Below are positions 160-8,386 of a stretch of DNA of 8,386 nt, in pieces. Position 1 is the stretch's first letter. Every line of letters begins with the position of its first letter. Both the position numbers and the translations under genes were made by a program. Below the pieces are notes generated by a model, which saw only the letters and a program-made list of their open reading frames with translations, searched no databases and was not told the origin of the DNA. Location of the stretch: contig DAOVMD010000114.1 of assembly GCA_030630935.1 (NCBI GenBank), forward strand, positions 1-8,386, written 5' to 3'. This stretch comes from Candidatus Mcinerneyibacteriota bacterium. GTDB lineage: Bacteria; AUK180; JAQVHJ01.

Positions 160-224
160 AAATTTTAAAATATTTTGAAAATAATTAAAAAGCACTTGAC
201 AAAATAAGATAATTTTGTTATAAT
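160..224 (+). promoter_or_regulatory. Consensus sigma70 promoter of the 900-aa lipoprotein gene
   Basis: The -35 box TTGACA (196-201) and -10 box TATAAT (219-224) both match the sigma70 consensus exactly. They are separated by 17 bp (202-218), and TG at 216-217 gives an extended -10. Just upstream lies an A/T tract (about 160-190) with alternating A and T runs like an UP element. Transcription should start near 231-233, giving a leader of about 227 bases. No operator palindrome overlaps the promoter, so it is probably constitutive and very strong, with control more likely in the leader RNA. Confidence 0.85.
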
Positions 225-458: not shown

Positions 459-3161
459 ATGCGTAAAGTTACATTATTATTAGTTCTCGCAGGTCTTGTA
501 GCATTTATGTTTGCCGGTTGTACACCGACAACTCCGGTAATTCCTAATATACCAACACAAACGATTGTTAAGCACGTAGGCGCTACCAGATTACAGGGTT
601 CCGGAGAAAGAGTAGAGAGAATTGTAATTTCTCCTATTTTAAGAGATCCAAGAAATGGAAATCTTTATGTAAAATGGGCCCCAGGTCAAGGCCCAGATCA
701 AGAGTACGTCAAGAGAGGCGCCACTCAAGAAGCAATAATTGAAGATATTGCACCGATCAAAACACAGAATACGTTTGTACTTACAGCGATTCGCTGGCAG
801 GCAGGCGCCAAGAACATGAAAGGCCAGACTGAGCATCATCCAAATGATCCAGGCAAACCTTTAGGTTATTGGGTAAGAGTTCCCGGTATCAAAGTAAAAT
901 GGATTTTAAATAGCTTTGAAGATATGGGACTCGAGAGAAGAGTTGGCGACATTGTAGACTGGGATCATTCAGATAGAGAGCCTGGTACAATGGGTGGTTG
1001 GCAGGATTACCTGTATAACACCATTACAACATTAACCAACTACAAAACTGAGACCATTAAGGTTCAGTACCCAATCAACAACAAGGATTGGCATCATCGC
1101 CAGCCAGATGGCAAACCAGTTCCAACCATGGACGGACGCTATGTTGACTTTGAAATTCAGAAAGGTCAGACATGGATTACCCTTACTGCTTCAAGAGCAG
1201 GACAAACAGACATTACCGCATATGCACCAGAGATTCTTCATCATTTAGGAATTGAAGGCACGAAATGGGATAAAGTCTTTATCACAAAGAAATGGGGTCT
1301 TGGCAAAGAATTCGGTTTAGAAATTGTATTAACAGATGATCCTTGTGATCCATTTGATATTAACTTCCTGATTCAGTCAGCTACACTTATTGATTGTACA
1401 ATGTGTAACTGGAAAGACGGTGACAGAAATATCAGAAAGAGAGCAATCTCATACAAAGCTATAATTACCAACACATCCAATCAGGATATTCATGGTTTAT
1501 GGCTTAAATTTGTTGCTCCTCGTTGGAATAAAGAGCAAGCCAAAGATGATCATTGGTTAACAGCAAAATACAGAAATCAGTGGAAAATTTTAGGTTGGAG
1601 ATGGAGAAGAATTGATGGTCATGATCTTCTTGCAGGTTCCCCAAAAGGCCCAATGATTTGTGTACCGATTAATCAGACCGATCAGTACAGACGTGAAGGT
1701 AAGAAACCGAGACATCCAATTGATTTAACTTTACCAAGCGCGTTAAACCCAAGAAAATATGATATCAAAACCCTTCATAAGGGCAGATCACACGTTCTTG
1801 AGATTTTCGTAATTCCTAAAAACCCACTGAAGAGAGATAACACAGTAGGTCTTTGGGCAAACTTTAAAGAATGGAAAGAAGGTTCAGTTGGCGGCACTTC
1901 CTACAATGTAGTAGAGAAGAAAGGCAGCATTTGTATAACAAAGAGCACCTTAGCAGGTCAAGGCCGTGGTAAGAGATTCTTCACAGAAGAGCCGACAAAG
2001 GTTTCTGTTATTAACGTTATGTTTACAAAGAGAGTAAGAATCGAAAGAAACAAAGTCCTTTGTAAAAAAGATAAATGGGGCGCATGTACCCGCAATATCG
2101 TCGACAAATTCTTTAGAGTTGACGCAAATGTTGGTGATCCTGTAACTTACATTTATGATGTAACCAATACAGGTGGTTCCACATTAAAAGCTGTAGTACT
2201 TGTTGAAAGATGGAAAGACAACAACATTGGTATTATGGGCAAGAGAATCAAAGTTGGTACTTTAAAGCCAGGTCAGACCAAGACCGTAAAACATACCGTA
2301 TATGGCACCAAAGAAGGCGAAGTTTTTGGTACAGCATTCTTGATAGCCGATGGTATGAGAACTGTTGGACTTTGTGAAGTTCCACAGCACCTCGTTATTG
2401 GTTCACCCGCGGGTGAAGATGTATTAACAGACGAGTTCTTCTCAGCACTTAATACAGCAGTCAGACCATATCCAGAATTTATTGTTGATAGAGATCGTAC
2501 CAATATGTGGGCGAGAGACCTTGAAGTTTGGTTAAGAAGAATTATGAATATTAATGTAAAGAGGGGTGATACCGCTTCAGATCCTATTGATATTCCATTC
2601 TTCAAATTACATAATGACAGAGTTCTCTATGTTTACACATTCAGAAATCAGCAGACTGGATACATCAATAACATGAATTTCGCATTCATGACTTCCATTC
2701 CTGCAACAACCGGTAAAATCGTTGATAATTTTATCGCATTTAAGGTTGGAAGACAGCACCCAGTAAAGGGTCATAGAGTAATAAGAAAAAACATTACTAA
2801 TATTGTTACAGCCAAAGCCTTACCAACAAAGACTATGTTCTTCAATGCACCGGCAACAAAGGTATTCCCGACAGCTGGTAAAACTGCAATATCCGAAGAA
2901 GAAGTCCGAATTGCTAAGAGATATAAAAACAAGAATGGTATTGTTTTCTTTGATCTTCCTAATGAATTCTCACTTGGTGCAGACCAAATGTTCATTATGT
3001 TCTTAACAGTTAAAATTGATCCTGATAATTTCAGGCCACATAAGTATTCTTCATATATGGTTGTTAACGCAGCCTCAACTTGCGGTGGTCCACAGGATAT
3101 CGACTCAGTAGCTGGTGAGCCTACTCACTTAGTTGTTGACAAAAACAGATTAACGGAATAA
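459..3161 (+). CDS. Large DUF11/OmcB-like lipoprotein (900 aa)
   Basis: Predicted abundant envelope lipoprotein. Residues 1-21 are a lipoprotein signal peptide (MRK, hydrophobic core, lipobox FAGC with acylated Cys21). Residues 140-290 include GQTWITLTASRAG and WDKVFITKKW, reminiscent of the N-terminal part of planctomycete DUF11 proteins. Residues 325-455 and 550-642 look like Ig-like DUF11/CARDB domains; the clearer one has GDPVTYIYDVTNTGG followed by GTLKPGQTKTV. Residues 690-890 seem to hold another beta-rich module. Besides Cys21 there are nine cysteines (296, 313, 316, 401, 492, 535, 543, 639, 875), fewer than in chlamydial OmcB but enough for disulfides. The start is supported by GGAG at 444-447 and by the signal peptide beginning at once; in-frame TAA at 435 excludes earlier starts. 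Frequent C-ending codons (AAC, ACC, ATC, TTC) set it apart from the AT-ending genes downstream and suggest high expression. It has its own promoter and terminator. Family assignment is from memory of motif patterns; exact function is unknown. Confidence 0.8.
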   Translation: MRKVTLLLVLAGLVAFMFAGCTPTTPVIPNIPTQTIVKHVGATRLQGSGERVERIVISPILRDPRNGNLYVKWAPGQGPDQEYVKRGATQEAIIEDIAPIKTQNTFVLTAIRWQAGAKNMKGQTEHHPNDPGKPLGYWVRVPGIKVKWILNSFEDMGLERRVGDIVDWDHSDREPGTMGGWQDYLYNTITTLTNYKTETIKVQYPINNKDWHHRQPDGKPVPTMDGRYVDFEIQKGQTWITLTASRAGQTDITAYAPEILHHLGIEGTKWDKVFITKKWGLGKEFGLEIVLTDDPCDPFDINFLIQSATLIDCTMCNWKDGDRNIRKRAISYKAIITNTSNQDIHGLWLKFVAPRWNKEQAKDDHWLTAKYRNQWKILGWRWRRIDGHDLLAGSPKGPMICVPINQTDQYRREGKKPRHPIDLTLPSALNPRKYDIKTLHKGRSHVLEIFVIPKNPLKRDNTVGLWANFKEWKEGSVGGTSYNVVEKKGSICITKSTLAGQGRGKRFFTEEPTKVSVINVMFTKRVRIERNKVLCKKDKWGACTRNIVDKFFRVDANVGDPVTYIYDVTNTGGSTLKAVVLVERWKDNNIGIMGKRIKVGTLKPGQTKTVKHTVYGTKEGEVFGTAFLIADGMRTVGLCEVPQHLVIGSPAGEDVLTDEFFSALNTAVRPYPEFIVDRDRTNMWARDLEVWLRRIMNINVKRGDTASDPIDIPFFKLHNDRVLYVYTFRNQQTGYINNMNFAFMTSIPATTGKIVDNFIAFKVGRQHPVKGHRVIRKNITNIVTAKALPTKTMFFNAPATKVFPTAGKTAISEEEVRIAKRYKNKNGIVFFDLPNEFSLGADQMFIMFLTVKIDPDNFRPHKYSSYMVVNAASTCGGPQDIDSVAGEPTHLVVDKNRLTE

Positions 3162-3194: not shown

Positions 3195-3235
3195 AGAGGT
3201 GGATGGGGTTTTAAATCACATCCACCTCTCTTTTT
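3195..3235 (+). terminator. Strong intrinsic terminator
   Basis: An 11-bp perfect stem, AGAGGTGGATG (3195-3205) with CATCCACCTCT (3219-3229), encloses a 13-base loop and is followed by C and five Ts (3231-3235). It sits 34 bases after the lipoprotein stop codon. It should end most transcripts from the strong upstream promoter. Because no separate promoter is evident for the next gene, leaky read-through may supply a lower level of the downstream five-gene message. Confidence 0.9.
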
Positions 3236-3256: not shown

Positions 3257-4480
3257 ATGCTTTACAAAAAATTTACAATAGTATTTTTGGTTACTTTTAG
3301 TCTTTTAATTTCACCTTATATTGTAAGTGCAAATTCTGAAATCAAGAATATTGTTGACCCTAACTATTGTTATATAAGAGGTGAATATCTTGAGAATATT
3401 CATTTATCAAATGTAATAGTAGTTAAGGATAATAACCTAAGGTTTAATATTCAAAATCTAACACGCGGTTCTATTCCAATTATAGATTTCTATGTAACCT
3501 ATCCAGTTCATGTTAGAATTACAGATTTACCTACGGATAGTAAGTTTATAACAGAAGGAAAACGGATTAAATATACCGGTAAAAAGATATTAAGCAAGAC
3601 AGGAAATATTCATTTTTATTCCCCTTATACACCTGTTTATGATGGGTTTGGTGTTTTTGAAATTTCCTTTGCTACTCAGATAGGTATTACAGAGTATAAT
3701 ATTAAGAAAATTATCCCAGTGTTTTTTAAAAATGGTAATCAAATTTTATTTGATCAAGTCCATGCCCAGTCTAGAAATGGCAAGGATTATTATTTTGAAA
3801 TCAAAATAAATAAATATCAAGATAGCGGAAAAAACTTTGAGTATTTTAAAAGATTTTATTTAGAAGTTCCGGTTGCAATAACAAATGTTTATAGAGAATT
3901 TAATTCAGACGAGCTAACACCTCCCAAACAGAATGAAAAAAAATATAATAAAAAACTTAAGAAATATGAAGAAACCATTCTAAAAGCTGATGGTATGATA
4001 AGAGACGACATAATCAAATTAGGAAATAAGTATGGGATATTAATTAAGAAGGAAGATATTCAATTTCGAAATCTTTTTCCAACAACTATTCCTATAACCC
4101 CGACTTATGAACCACCTCTGCAAGGCCCCCGACCACCGAGGACTAATTTTGGTGAATTTACTTATGAAACTTTAATTCTTCCAACCCTCACAACCTTAAC
4201 TTTAGTTGCGTGGCAGGAATATAAACATGGTAGTGAATTCCAATATGAGCAGTATTTAAAAGGGAACCTTGGAGCGTATTCAAATTATGAGGATAAATTA
4301 AAGGATTCAGATATTGCAAGAGGCTTATTCTATTTCTGTTTAATTGACTTATTTTTTGCAGCTACGGGAAATGAAATTATAACCACTTTTATTTTAAAAG
4401 ATACTTCTTTTTCCAACTTTAGTTCAGGTTTTCAATTTGGACGTGATCGAGTGTATTACAAATTAAATGTTAAATTTTAA
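3257..4480 (+). CDS. Exported protein of unknown function with C-terminal hydrophobic segments
   Basis: Residues 1-25 form a Sec signal peptide (MLYKK, hydrophobic core, likely cut after VSA). Residues 45-170 are beta-rich with spacing like an Ig-type sandwich (LRFNIQNLTRGSIPIIDFYV). Residues 222-245 are charged and probably helical, and 275-296 are proline-rich. Near the C-terminus two hydrophobic stretches (about 305-319 and 356-369) flank a Tyr-rich loop ending in a DSDIARG motif, resembling the C-terminal membrane-associated part of DUF5683-like envelope proteins; the final residue is Phe, as in many outer-membrane proteins. AGGAG at 3242-3246 lies ten bases before ATG, the only good Shine-Dalgarno among the first-gene candidates after the terminator. 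It is first in the five-gene run; the next gene starts 13 bases after its stop. I cannot assign a function. Confidence 0.75.
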   Translation: MLYKKFTIVFLVTFSLLISPYIVSANSEIKNIVDPNYCYIRGEYLENIHLSNVIVVKDNNLRFNIQNLTRGSIPIIDFYVTYPVHVRITDLPTDSKFITEGKRIKYTGKKILSKTGNIHFYSPYTPVYDGFGVFEISFATQIGITEYNIKKIIPVFFKNGNQILFDQVHAQSRNGKDYYFEIKINKYQDSGKNFEYFKRFYLEVPVAITNVYREFNSDELTPPKQNEKKYNKKLKKYEETILKADGMIRDDIIKLGNKYGILIKKEDIQFRNLFPTTIPITPTYEPPLQGPRPPRTNFGEFTYETLILPTLTTLTLVAWQEYKHGSEFQYEQYLKGNLGAYSNYEDKLKDSDIARGLFYFCLIDLFFAATGNEIITTFILKDTSFSNFSSGFQFGRDRVYYKLNVKF

Positions 4481-4481
4481 T

Positions 4482-4486
4482 AAGGA
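4482..4486 (+). promoter_or_regulatory. Ribosome binding site fixing the start of the next gene at 4494
   Basis: AAGGA lies seven bases before the ATG at 4494. An earlier in-frame ATG at 4467 overlaps the previous gene, has no Shine-Dalgarno, and would add nine polar residues ahead of a normal lipoprotein signal peptide. The 4494 start is therefore preferred. Confidence 0.75.
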
Positions 4487-4493
4487 TTCAACT

Positions 4494-5264
4494 ATGCAAA
4501 TCTTCAAACGGTTTTATTTTGTAGTTTTTATCTTGATGGGATTATTCATTATTCAAACTGGTTGTTATAAACCTTTAGGAAGGTTAAACCCCACAGACCC
4601 GCTTGGAGAAAATTATATTCAACCGAGAATCCAGATTAGATATATTGAAAATTCAAAAGCATCGACTCAGATCAACAGGGATGAGGAGATCAGCATAACA
4701 GTTGTAGTAAATAACAATACTATTCTTAAGGATGTTTATTATAGATGTTCTGATGGTTATTTTGAGGTTGAAACTTCAACCGGAACTCAACAGGTTACAG
4801 AAATAACCATAAAAAGCAATAATATTGATTGGATTGCTCCGACTAATTTAACTGAAGCCACATTTTTAATTCAGGTTTCAGATATTAATGGTAACAAAGA
4901 CAGTCAAAGTTATTTTTTAGATATTGTAAATAGTGTTCCTGAAATTCTGAGTTTTACTGCAACTCCCACAACTGTAACTTCTTTAGGTCAGACGATTGCA
5001 TTGGCAATTGCCACTGATGATGATCTTGGAATTACTCTTTATGAATTTTTTGCCAGCCCGCCGCAGGGTGTATTTAATTATAATTCAAATACTCAAACTG
5101 CATCAATCCAGGTTGCGTCAGCTGCAAATACAATTTCTTTAGATTGGATTGCTGAAAGTGTTCTTCATGGTGCTCCTTATGACCAGAAGATAACTGTTAT
5201 TGTAACAGATACTGATAGTGAAACTGCAACTGCAGAGATTATACTGCCAACAAACATTCCTTAA
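4494..5264 (+). CDS. Lipoprotein with two Ig-like domains
   Basis: This 256-residue product starts with a basic, hydrophobic signal (MQIFKRF then a long apolar core) and Cys24 in the context IIQTGC. Gln at -3 makes the lipobox imperfect, but the following CYKPLGRLNPTDP matches the NPxDP pattern seen just after the acylated Cys in many envelope lipoproteins. Two domains of about 100 residues follow (about 45-145 and 150-252). Each contains DWIAP/E (112-116 and 217-221) and ends in a beta strand of the type VSDxNGN or VTDTDSETAT, so the second looks like a copy of the first. This is the common Ig-like/PKD-type sandwich of surface and adhesion proteins. The gene starts 13 bases after the preceding stop, and the next gene follows after three bases. 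The role is probably binding or scaffolding; the ligand is unknown. Confidence 0.75.
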   Translation: MQIFKRFYFVVFILMGLFIIQTGCYKPLGRLNPTDPLGENYIQPRIQIRYIENSKASTQINRDEEISITVVVNNNTILKDVYYRCSDGYFEVETSTGTQQVTEITIKSNNIDWIAPTNLTEATFLIQVSDINGNKDSQSYFLDIVNSVPEILSFTATPTTVTSLGQTIALAIATDDDLGITLYEFFASPPQGVFNYNSNTQTASIQVASAANTISLDWIAESVLHGAPYDQKITVIVTDTDSETATAEIILPTNIP

Positions 5265-5267
5265 ATT

Positions 5268-6251
5268 ATGAAGAAAATTTTAACAATAACATTAACAACT
5301 ATTTTTATTATTATTTTAAGTTTTAATGCATATTCAATTAAAGTAAAAGAAACCGGAATAAAAGATTTTCCAATTTCAGGTACTGTAATAAAAGTTTTAA
5401 CTTATAATAATTACTATTTGATAGTAAATCAAGCATTAGGTGTTAAGGTATATAAAAAAACGGATAAGAATTTCAAAAATATAAAAGGGTTTTTACAGAT
5501 TAAAGTTCTTGATGCGCTTGTTATAAAAAATAGACTATATTTATTAAATGATGAAGAAGGATTTTTTATATATGAAATCACAAAGAACGGAGACAAGATT
5601 GAATTCTTATCAATCTATGCCTTCTTGACTGACTTAGAAGTTGAATTTAAAAAAATGACAAGCCATAAAAATTATCTGATCTTAACCGGGAAATATGGAG
5701 AGATTTATGTGTTTGATTCGAATGATCTGAAATCAAATGATCCAGTCTTTGTTTCAAGTGTCCCGAATTCATTAATAATCTCGGATTTATTGATTTATAA
5801 AGATGAATATCTTTTAATTGGAGATGCTAGAAAAGGCTTGTTTATCTATCAAATTCGTCCGAAAGGTGAACTTAAGTATATCAAGGATATCCCATTTGAA
5901 GACGGAGTAACTACTCTTTATCACCATAAATTGGAAGATCTGTTGTATATTGGAAACAGTACAGGTATTCATATCTGTACATTTAATAATTTGAAATTGG
6001 AAGAGCAATTTTATCTTTCAATTCACCTGAAACTAATAAATGATATATTGGTCTTAGACGATTTCTTATATTACGTCTCTGAACAGGAGTTTGGTGTAGT
6101 AGAAATTTCAAATAAAAAGAAATATAACGAATTACTATTTTTAGATATGCATTGTTACACATTTCAATTATTTTTCATATCAAAAAATGAGTTTTTAATT
6201 CCTGCATATTGTTCAGGTTTAAAAAAAGTAGAGTTAAAATATTATGAATAA
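5268..6251 (+). CDS. Secreted seven-repeat beta-propeller protein (LVIVD-like)
   Basis: Residues 1-23 are a Sec signal peptide (MKKILTITLT, apolar core, likely cut after AYS). The mature protein has seven repeats of about 43 residues, starting near 40, 80, 128, 170, 213, 257 and 298. Each has the pattern of a hydrophobic strand, a Tyr/Leu-rich strand, then Gly followed by a short strand (LIVNQALGVKVYK, YLLNDEEGFFIYEI, YLLIGDARKGLFIYQI). That spacing and count fit a seven-bladed beta-propeller of the LVIVD type, exposed on the surface or in the periplasm and used for binding; no catalytic residues are apparent. ATG lies three bases after the previous stop, with no Shine-Dalgarno in the preceding 20 bases, so translation likely depends on reinitiation. 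The end overlaps the next start by eight bases. Confidence 0.75.
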   Translation: MKKILTITLTTIFIIILSFNAYSIKVKETGIKDFPISGTVIKVLTYNNYYLIVNQALGVKVYKKTDKNFKNIKGFLQIKVLDALVIKNRLYLLNDEEGFFIYEITKNGDKIEFLSIYAFLTDLEVEFKKMTSHKNYLILTGKYGEIYVFDSNDLKSNDPVFVSSVPNSLIISDLLIYKDEYLLIGDARKGLFIYQIRPKGELKYIKDIPFEDGVTTLYHHKLEDLLYIGNSTGIHICTFNNLKLEEQFYLSIHLKLINDILVLDDFLYYVSEQEFGVVEISNKKKYNELLFLDMHCYTFQLFFISKNEFLIPAYCSGLKKVELKYYE

Positions 6252-6765
6252 AATAATAATTCCATTTTTAGTGTTAATTTTTATTTTTGTAGGCTGTACA
6301 AGATCAGATGATAAGGAAGCAGAGAAATACATTAAGGAATCAAATGTATTGAGAAGTGAAAAAAAATATGAAGAAGCGATAAAAACTTTAAAATATATAA
6401 AGATGAATTATCCTCGAAGTAAATATTGGGAGCAGATAGATTCCGAGATTCGCGAGATTGAAGCTGAGAGTTTATATACTGAATCAGTCGAGAACTACCG
6501 GGAGAAGAAGATCACTCTAACAATTAACATCTTAAATAAAATTGTTACCCAATATAAAGATACCAAATACTTTAAATTAGCAAAAAGGGATTTAAATTTT
6601 ATTAATGAAGAGATTAAGACACTTTGGGATGATTATTACAAGACAAAAGAACAGAAAGATTATAATAAATGTATAGAAATATTAAAAGAATTAAACCATT
6701 ATGTTCCGGATCCAAAGATTACAGAAGAATATAAGGAAATTCAAAAAAAGTTACAAGCTAAGTAA
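6244..6765 (+). CDS. Small TPR-like lipoprotein
   Basis: This 173-residue product has a short lipoprotein signal (MNKIII, apolar core, FVGC with Cys18; Phe at -3 is acceptable). The rest is helical and highly charged, with three TPR-like units at about 25-58, 76-107 and 126-156; the first, KKYEEAIKTLKYIKMNYPRS, is close to the BamD/YfiO-type TPR that ends in a Tyr-Pro turn. BamD itself is longer (about 245 residues), so this is only a relative in fold. TPR proteins hold partners together, so it may be the adaptor of the cluster. The start overlaps the preceding stop in ATGAATAA (6244-6251). There is no clear Shine-Dalgarno, and the gene overlaps the next by 65 bases. Confidence 0.72.
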   Translation: MNKIIIPFLVLIFIFVGCTRSDDKEAEKYIKESNVLRSEKKYEEAIKTLKYIKMNYPRSKYWEQIDSEIREIEAESLYTESVENYREKKITLTINILNKIVTQYKDTKYFKLAKRDLNFINEEIKTLWDDYYKTKEQKDYNKCIEILKELNHYVPDPKITEEYKEIQKKLQAK

Positions 6766-8194
6766 ATTTTTAATAGTAATTATTTTTATAATTTCATTAT
6801 ATTCAATTGTTCAAGCCCAATTTAGAAACATATCTGATTTTGACACCAAACAAGTTGAAGAGATAAAAAGTAATTATTATATAAATCAACTTGTCAAAGA
6901 ATTTGGAAAAATTGATAAAGAAGATCTTGAACTTTCAATTATTGAGAATCCAACTTGTAAAATTTATATGTTAAGTTATTATAACCTTCAGGATGAAAAA
7001 GTCACAGCACAATTATATATTCAACAAAAGGGTTTAGAAGGCGAGTCTTTTTCAATTGAGAAGGATACTTTTTTGGATCATTATATTCTTTCAGATGCTT
7101 CAGGGAAGGATATTAATGGGGATGGATTCCTGGAAATTGTTTTTGTAAACTATTCCACATTTTGTTCAAAGAGTAAGGTATTAGAGATTTTCAGGATCAC
7201 TAAGGACGGGCTTCAACCGCTTAAAATCCAACCGGTTTTCCCTGTTAAGGATTTTAAATTTGCTGATTTAAACAATGATAATATTTATGAGGTTTTACTT
7301 GATTATGGGGAAACGGAAGAAATCTGTAAGTCCTGTTTTTTATGTAAGAATATTTTTTACTCGAAAATATTAAGATTTGATAATAAAAACTGTTATTATT
7401 TAGATAGAGATTTAGAGCAAGGGTTTTATAGGTTTTATGTAGAAGAAAATTTAAAGTATCTTGATTTTGAAGAGATTTATTTTTTAGAACCGGAATATTT
7501 CGATAATTTGATAAATTTATTATTCTATATAGTATTATTAAAAGATGATGATTTAATCAATAAGTTTAATGATGAGCTCAAAGAGATGGGATTAAAATTA
7601 TCTAAATATTCAGGTATGATAAAAGATAATTATTACTGCCTTTTCAAATTATTTTATGATATAAGATTGCAGAAATTTTTTAAACGTAATTACCTTTATT
7701 ATAATCAGACTTTAATTATTGAGCGGGATTTTTATGATAAATTGAGTGAATATTTTCCTGATTATAAAATTGTATCGATTGATCAATTCAATGATAGGAT
7801 AAAAGATATTTTCAAGGATCCGGGTTTCATTCGTTCATATCGTTTTCCGCCATTTTGCGGATGGGGTGATTTTAACGGTGATAATAAAGAAGATTTTATT
7901 TTATTATTAACTAATAAAGAACATACAATTTATAAGTTGGTAGTATGTTTGGTTATGAGTAAAGATGCTATTAGAATGATTGAACTTGATTCATTTACAC
8001 ATTATGATGAAAAGATTGATTTTTTTCTGCAGATAAATTATCCTTATACACAGGAAGTAGTTGATGATTTTAGGAATTCAGTTTATTTCATTGATGATTA
8101 TTCATTTTCTTTTATTCAAGCAGGGAAGAAGGAATTATTATATTTTTGGAATAAACCAATTAATAATTTTGACAGAATTTATAGAAAGGAATAA
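6701..8194 (+). CDS. Secreted FG-GAP/VCBS-like repeat protein
   Basis: This 497-residue product has an unusually long basic N-region (1-22, eight Lys/Arg), a hydrophobic core and a likely cleavage after VQA (about residue 39). Three short motifs of the calcium-binding FG-GAP/VCBS type occur: DINGDGFLE (137-145), DLNNDNIYE (189-197) and DFNGDNKED (389-397). The gap between the second and third (about 200-385) holds a helical, Tyr/Phe/Lys-rich insert. A CxxCxxC cluster (Cys209, 212, 215) lies just after the second motif. The C-terminal stretch (about 462-492) resembles the closing part of other FG-GAP proteins. The start at 6701 is the only ATG, GTG or TTG in frame before the signal core, although it lies 65 bases inside the upstream gene and has no Shine-Dalgarno. 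It is the last gene of the run; no terminator is evident. It probably acts outside the cytoplasm in binding. Confidence 0.7.
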   Translation: MFRIQRLQKNIRKFKKSYKLSKFLIVIIFIISLYSIVQAQFRNISDFDTKQVEEIKSNYYINQLVKEFGKIDKEDLELSIIENPTCKIYMLSYYNLQDEKVTAQLYIQQKGLEGESFSIEKDTFLDHYILSDASGKDINGDGFLEIVFVNYSTFCSKSKVLEIFRITKDGLQPLKIQPVFPVKDFKFADLNNDNIYEVLLDYGETEEICKSCFLCKNIFYSKILRFDNKNCYYLDRDLEQGFYRFYVEENLKYLDFEEIYFLEPEYFDNLINLLFYIVLLKDDDLINKFNDELKEMGLKLSKYSGMIKDNYYCLFKLFYDIRLQKFFKRNYLYYNQTLIIERDFYDKLSEYFPDYKIVSIDQFNDRIKDIFKDPGFIRSYRFPPFCGWGDFNGDNKEDFILLLTNKEHTIYKLVVCLVMSKDAIRMIELDSFTHYDEKIDFFLQINYPYTQEVVDDFRNSVYFIDDYSFSFIQAGKKELLYFWNKPINNFDRIYRKE

Positions 8195-8256
8195 CTATAA
8201 ATATGAAATAGATTTTAACCTTAGTATTGTTTTTTGAAAGATGATTTAATATAAAT

Positions 8257-8271
8257 CCGTTCTTTGACATA
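8257..8271 (+). promoter_or_regulatory. boxA-like / -35-like sequence
   Basis: CCGTTCTTTGACATA resembles the boxA antitermination element (E. coli TGCTCTTTAACA), seen ahead of rRNA operons and some CRISPR leaders, and it also contains an exact TTGACA (8264-8269). TATAAT copies at 8280-8285 and 8300-8305 lie at the wrong distances (10 and 30 bases) for a standard promoter, so a boxA-type role, or chance, is as likely. The gene it would serve lies beyond the window. Confidence 0.3.
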
Positions 8272-8358
8272 TTAATTTCTATAATTTTGTATAACATAAT
8301 ATAATACTCTTGTTTATAACCTCTGGTGCTTAAAGGAACAATTGAATGCAAAATTAAC

Positions 8359-8386
8359 CACTGAACACACTGATCACACTGAAACG
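8359..8386. repeat. 9-bp direct repeats running off the window edge
   Basis: Three consecutive 9-mers, CACTGAACA, CACTGATCA and CACTGAAAC, share CACTGAWMA-like content. Similar CACTGA-type tandem repeats sit between genes in many uncultured bacterial lineages and are not CRISPR repeats. The array may continue beyond 8386. Confidence 0.55.

Follow-up and report, generated by a model that had tools for sequence, protein, structure and literature searches.

Five genes that lie close together and all appear to encode exported proteins raise the question of whether their products build a single envelope apparatus or whether the genes are one instance of a way in which their genome commonly arranges surface protein genes. 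The window, by which we mean the whole 8,386-nucleotide stretch of DNA analyzed here, is one entire contig of a 3.16-Mb genome (471 contigs, 80% complete). The sequence-only reading of this DNA had proposed that the five proteins are subunits of one envelope complex. It seems fairly probable to us that the genes instead make up one operon whose exported products are peripheral binding or scaffolding modules of the cell envelope and, to the extent that sequence search detects, are confined to this lineage; we take the cluster to be an ordinary lineage-specific surface operon.

Cluster layout and the upstream 900-aa gene

The five co-directional open reading frames, all on the + strand, occupy positions 3257-8194 of the window just as first described (table 1). 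Genes 1 and 2 are 13 nt apart and genes 2 and 3 are 3 nt apart; gene 4 overlaps gene 3 by 8 nt, and gene 5 overlaps gene 4 by 65 nt. All five proteins carry an N-terminal export signal (signal peptide or lipobox) according to the crude scan that served as our export predictor, and known enzymes, regulators and transporters give no match to any of the five. The earlier description of a tight unit of exported proteins that lacks these three kinds of function thus agrees with what we find, and the export signals and the tight organisation can be read from the sequence. The four junctions inside the cluster show no hairpin comparable to the terminator that precedes gene 1 (below); the promoter and terminator scans gave a weak terminator-like site within gene 1 (4134-4154), and no cluster promoter could be assigned, the promoter scan being not above chance. 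Judged by their tight operon organisation, the five genes are probably carried on a single transcript.

The gene immediately upstream, which encodes a 900-aa protein, is a transcription unit apart from the cluster: a consensus promoter of its own precedes it, and a strong terminator sets gene 1 off from it. These two elements contradict the tie between this gene and the cluster that had been entertained earlier. The terminator hairpin was found by fold calculation (-21.3 kcal/mol, z -4.65, with none of 200 shuffled sequences as stable), and its loop exceeds the limit of a simple terminator scan. The 900-aa gene has a GC content of 0.395 and a GC3 of 0.32, both above those of the five-gene cluster, and from the consensus promoter and the higher GC3 than its neighbours its product looks like an abundant envelope protein. 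At E up to 0.001, none of the phylum's six other genomes has a match to this protein (the genome set searched represents the phylum by seven species, namely the source genome and these six), and a scan of the genome collection gave no relative. The gene has a long 5' leader (225-458) in which a strong ribosome site, AAAGGAGGTG, is followed by a 14-codon reading frame with a TTG start; the leader has clear hairpins (fold z -2.1) and no Rfam match, and is possibly regulatory.

Table 1. Positions of the genes and transcription signals of the window
Feature	Position	Strand	Description and basis
Sigma-70 promoter	196..224	+	TTGACA-17-TATAAT with TG extension, 12/12 consensus match; 5' of the 900-aa gene
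900-aa gene	459..3161	+	Lipoprotein with DUF7507/DUF11-type domain; ORF, Pfam DUF7507 (1.6e-7), lipobox FAGC
Intrinsic terminator	3195..3235	+	11-bp G+C-rich stem and T tract; boundary between 900-aa gene and cluster
Gene 1	3257..4480	+	407-aa exported protein, no family in Pfam or NCBIfam; ORF, export scan
Gene 2	4494..5264 (or from 4467)	+	256-aa exported protein, possible lipoprotein; ORF, ribosome site
Gene 3	5268..6251	+	327-aa exported protein, predicted beta-propeller, LVIVD-like; model, fold matches, LVIVD relative
Gene 4	6244..6765	+	173-aa TPR lipoprotein; lipobox FVGC, TPR_18 above cut-off
Gene 5	6701..8194	+	497-aa exported protein, two FG-GAP-type motifs; FG-GAP_3 (3.5e-7)

Folds and families of the five proteins

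The product of gene 1 begins with a type I signal, and its C-terminal part has hydrophobic helices with a strand pair at the end. Its structural model, built without relatives, has a pLDDT of 34.5, is unreliable for anything other than layout and was kept out of the fold searches; in order, it has a beta-rich N-terminal part, a helical linker, the hydrophobic helices and two last strands, which at the level of layout fits the original view of an exported protein with C-terminal hydrophobic segments. This C-terminal part would place the protein in or at the outer membrane. A likeness of the C-terminal part to DUF5683-type membrane anchors was considered and is unsupported by Pfam.

The more likely true start of gene 2 is at 4494 (giving 256 aa), because an AAGGATT ribosome site is present there; the alternative at 4467 would overlap gene 1. 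Its product is a probable lipoprotein, a call that is not secure because the imperfect lipobox, IQTGC, has Q at a position where that residue is unusual. The protein is beta-rich by eye and had been labelled Ig-like on its appearance; it has no significant Ig-like or other match in Pfam or NCBIfam, although folds of this kind are often missed by sequence. Thus, among the module assignments of the sequence-only reading, the Ig-like one is unsupported by either collection, whereas the propeller (from fold matches) and the TPR and FG-GAP modules (from Pfam) are upheld.

Structural modelling confirms the gene 3 product as a beta-propeller. The model (pLDDT roughly 60-85 at residues 41-210 and low elsewhere) matched propellers across the PDB (1131 chains at E up to 0.001), with Z about 13-14 for the fold matches; a PDB sequence search gave only a marginal match. 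Hydrophobicity along the protein has a weak period of 42-44 residues, and the repeats, about seven in number, are 42-44 aa long. The LVIVD repeat, a unit of 42 residues, has been described in surface proteins of archaea and bacteria (PMC2447325). Gene 3 shares with surface propellers of this family (PF08309) the 42-44 aa repeat spacing, export and the propeller fold, but it is shorter, with about seven repeats, and is missed by the LVIVD model, which is absent from its Pfam matches at E up to 1. A single comparison with a 625-aa, 14-repeat LVIVD protein encoded in the same genome (L129:7468-9345) gave E 3e-6, and by this match gene 3 is distantly related to it.

The gene 4 product is confirmed, by its sequence motifs, as a TPR lipoprotein. 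It resembles the YfiO/BamD type of TPR lipoprotein in its lipobox and its N-terminal TPR region, where both TIGR03302 and TPR_18 match, but the match to TIGR03302 (6e-10, 38.9 bits) does not reach the curated cut-off of 81.4 bits, its best stretch spans only model positions 4-72 of 239, and the source genome has 20 YfiO-like matches, with gene 4 among the weaker ones. These values bear on a possible role of the cluster as a BAM-type accessory set for outer-membrane protein assembly, with a BamB-like propeller and a BamD-like TPR lipoprotein. The gene 3 model does align with BamB, which would suit such a set together with the weak YfiO/BamD match, but BamB is only one among more than 1000 propeller chains that this model matches and the window has no BamA; with gene 4 so far under the family cut-off and covering only part of the model, a BAM-like identity was rejected and we regard it as extremely improbable.

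Gene 5 matches FG-GAP_3 (PF13517) at residues 137-199 with 31.2 bits, against a Pfam cut-off of 26.9 bits, as would be expected of an exported FG-GAP repeat protein; it differs from such proteins in having two motifs that are far apart (the second, near residue 390, was found by eye) and no full seven-blade array. The part of the protein between its ends looks helical. A full integrin-type seven-bladed FG-GAP propeller was considered and rejected, there being one significant repeat and one found by eye rather than about seven. The start of this gene lies in its 65-nt overlap with gene 4 (6701-6765), where a 23-residue basic stretch precedes the signal core; there is no other common start codon, and the true start may be later and unusual.

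Relatives and comparable gene runs

The searches gave no conserved neighbourhood of the cluster, since detectable homologs of four of its five proteins are lacking in the phylum's six other genomes: genes 1, 3 and 5 have no match there at E up to 0.001 and gene 2 none at E up to 0.01 (gene 4 was covered across genomes through the YfiO family model only). In a set of 386 genomes, drawn mainly from other parts of the domain, gene 1 has no match and gene 5 has one weak match, in a genome of another phylum (G234; E 0.0065, residues 131-202), which falls on the FG-GAP motif only and was rejected as evidence of a homologous operon. Sequence search often overlooks exported proteins that are short and evolve fast, and the lack of homologs may reflect such misses rather than true restriction. 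The same point has been raised about lineage-specific genes at large (PMC7660931).

The source genome itself offers a more direct comparison. About 546 kb of it, in stretches and with a few contigs masked as N, was sampled; of the 387 genes in this sample, 119 (about 31%) look exported by the same crude test. Co-directional runs of exported genes in the sample include two of four genes and five of three, a count that may be slightly inflated by the fact that part of the sampled contigs were picked for TPR genes. The run in the window has five genes, or six if the 900-aa gene is counted, and is unusual, not extraordinary, for a genome so rich in exported proteins. Several of the other runs have a similar make-up. 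A tight run at L129:1106-9345 combines a TPR protein of about 200 aa with a 1885-aa RHS-repeat protein and, after them, the 14-repeat LVIVD propeller mentioned above; like the window cluster, it brings exported TPR and propeller genes together in one tight co-directional run, but it has the RHS-repeat protein in addition and no detectable relatives of genes 1, 2 and 5. A second tight run (L128:884-13232) also encodes a TPR protein of about 200 aa along with a giant protein (the giants of these two loci are 1842-1885 aa long), and another exported run (L172) combines two related lipoproteins with a Reg_prop propeller and a 421-aa exported protein. Whole-protein phmmer searches of the genome sample with default filters gave no matches to the cluster proteins, and with the filters off there was a clear match for gene 3 only. 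As judged by these searches, the other runs share folds with the window cluster and no detectable sequence beyond the pair formed by gene 3 and the LVIVD protein. The cluster thus stands beside several other runs of exported genes in this genome. It is no member of a described system.

How do these findings bear on the proposal of a single envelope complex, devoted to adhesion, surface assembly or polymer capture, of which all five proteins would be dedicated subunits? The operon-like spacing with its overlaps, the complementary binding folds and the rarity of such runs by chance (label shuffling, scaled from the sample to the genome, leads one to expect per genome only 0.66 runs with at least five genes and 0.12 with at least six) all speak for it. 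On the other hand, neither the six phylum genomes nor the 386-genome searches yielded a conserved neighbourhood, mixed exported runs occur elsewhere in the same genome, and no outer-membrane channel, enzyme or assembly factor could be made out. The comparable runs speak more for a tendency of the genome as a whole than for one specific machine, and we consider the single complex doubtful; a species- or genus-specific surface machine of five exported binding modules that has no described adhesion or secretion counterpart is, in our estimation, unlikely. Under the preferred reading, that of an ordinary surface operon, the five genes would be transcribed together and their products exported into the cell envelope of this species, where two of the five would probably be lipid-anchored; other proteins or surface polymers would be the ligands of the propeller, TPR and FG-GAP proteins. 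Co-transcription, location and any joint action of the products are inferred. Were the products to form one complex, a phylum known only from a handful of genomes would gain a new kind of surface apparatus. For now, the cluster illustrates how genomes of this sort can hold operons of orphan exported proteins with common folds, which are beyond assignment by sequence search alone.

Origin of the contig

A binning or horizontal-transfer artefact, in which this DNA derives from a different organism or from a mobile element, would also bear on the apparent restriction of these genes, since it would explain why the phylum has no relatives. The window as a whole has 31.9% GC and the sampled contigs have about 30-39%; the five-gene part, at 26-34% GC and a GC3 of 0.21-0.26, is AT-richer than most of them, which lends the artefact some weight. 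The ends of the contig point the other way. Bases 1-130 match 42 places in the genome (self included), with the other copies at 82-97% identity, and the last 150 bases (8238-8386) have matches on many contigs of the source genome, so that both repeats belong to families dispersed through that genome on dozens of contigs; misbinning is therefore unlikely and the contig belongs where it was placed. The distant gene 3 relative in the same genome also argues against an artefact, as does the failure to find any convincing phage or plasmid family or homolog: PHROGs gave marginal matches only, viral-contig scans with four window proteins gave no match, and neither did a plasmid tblastn search with gene 5. 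We thus hold an artefact to be very improbable, while the end repeats may leave room for an old transfer of the genes themselves. An Rfam search over the window gave no match. Within the first repeat, positions ~46-98 could fold as a hairpin (CAAGCAAC ... GTTGCTTG).
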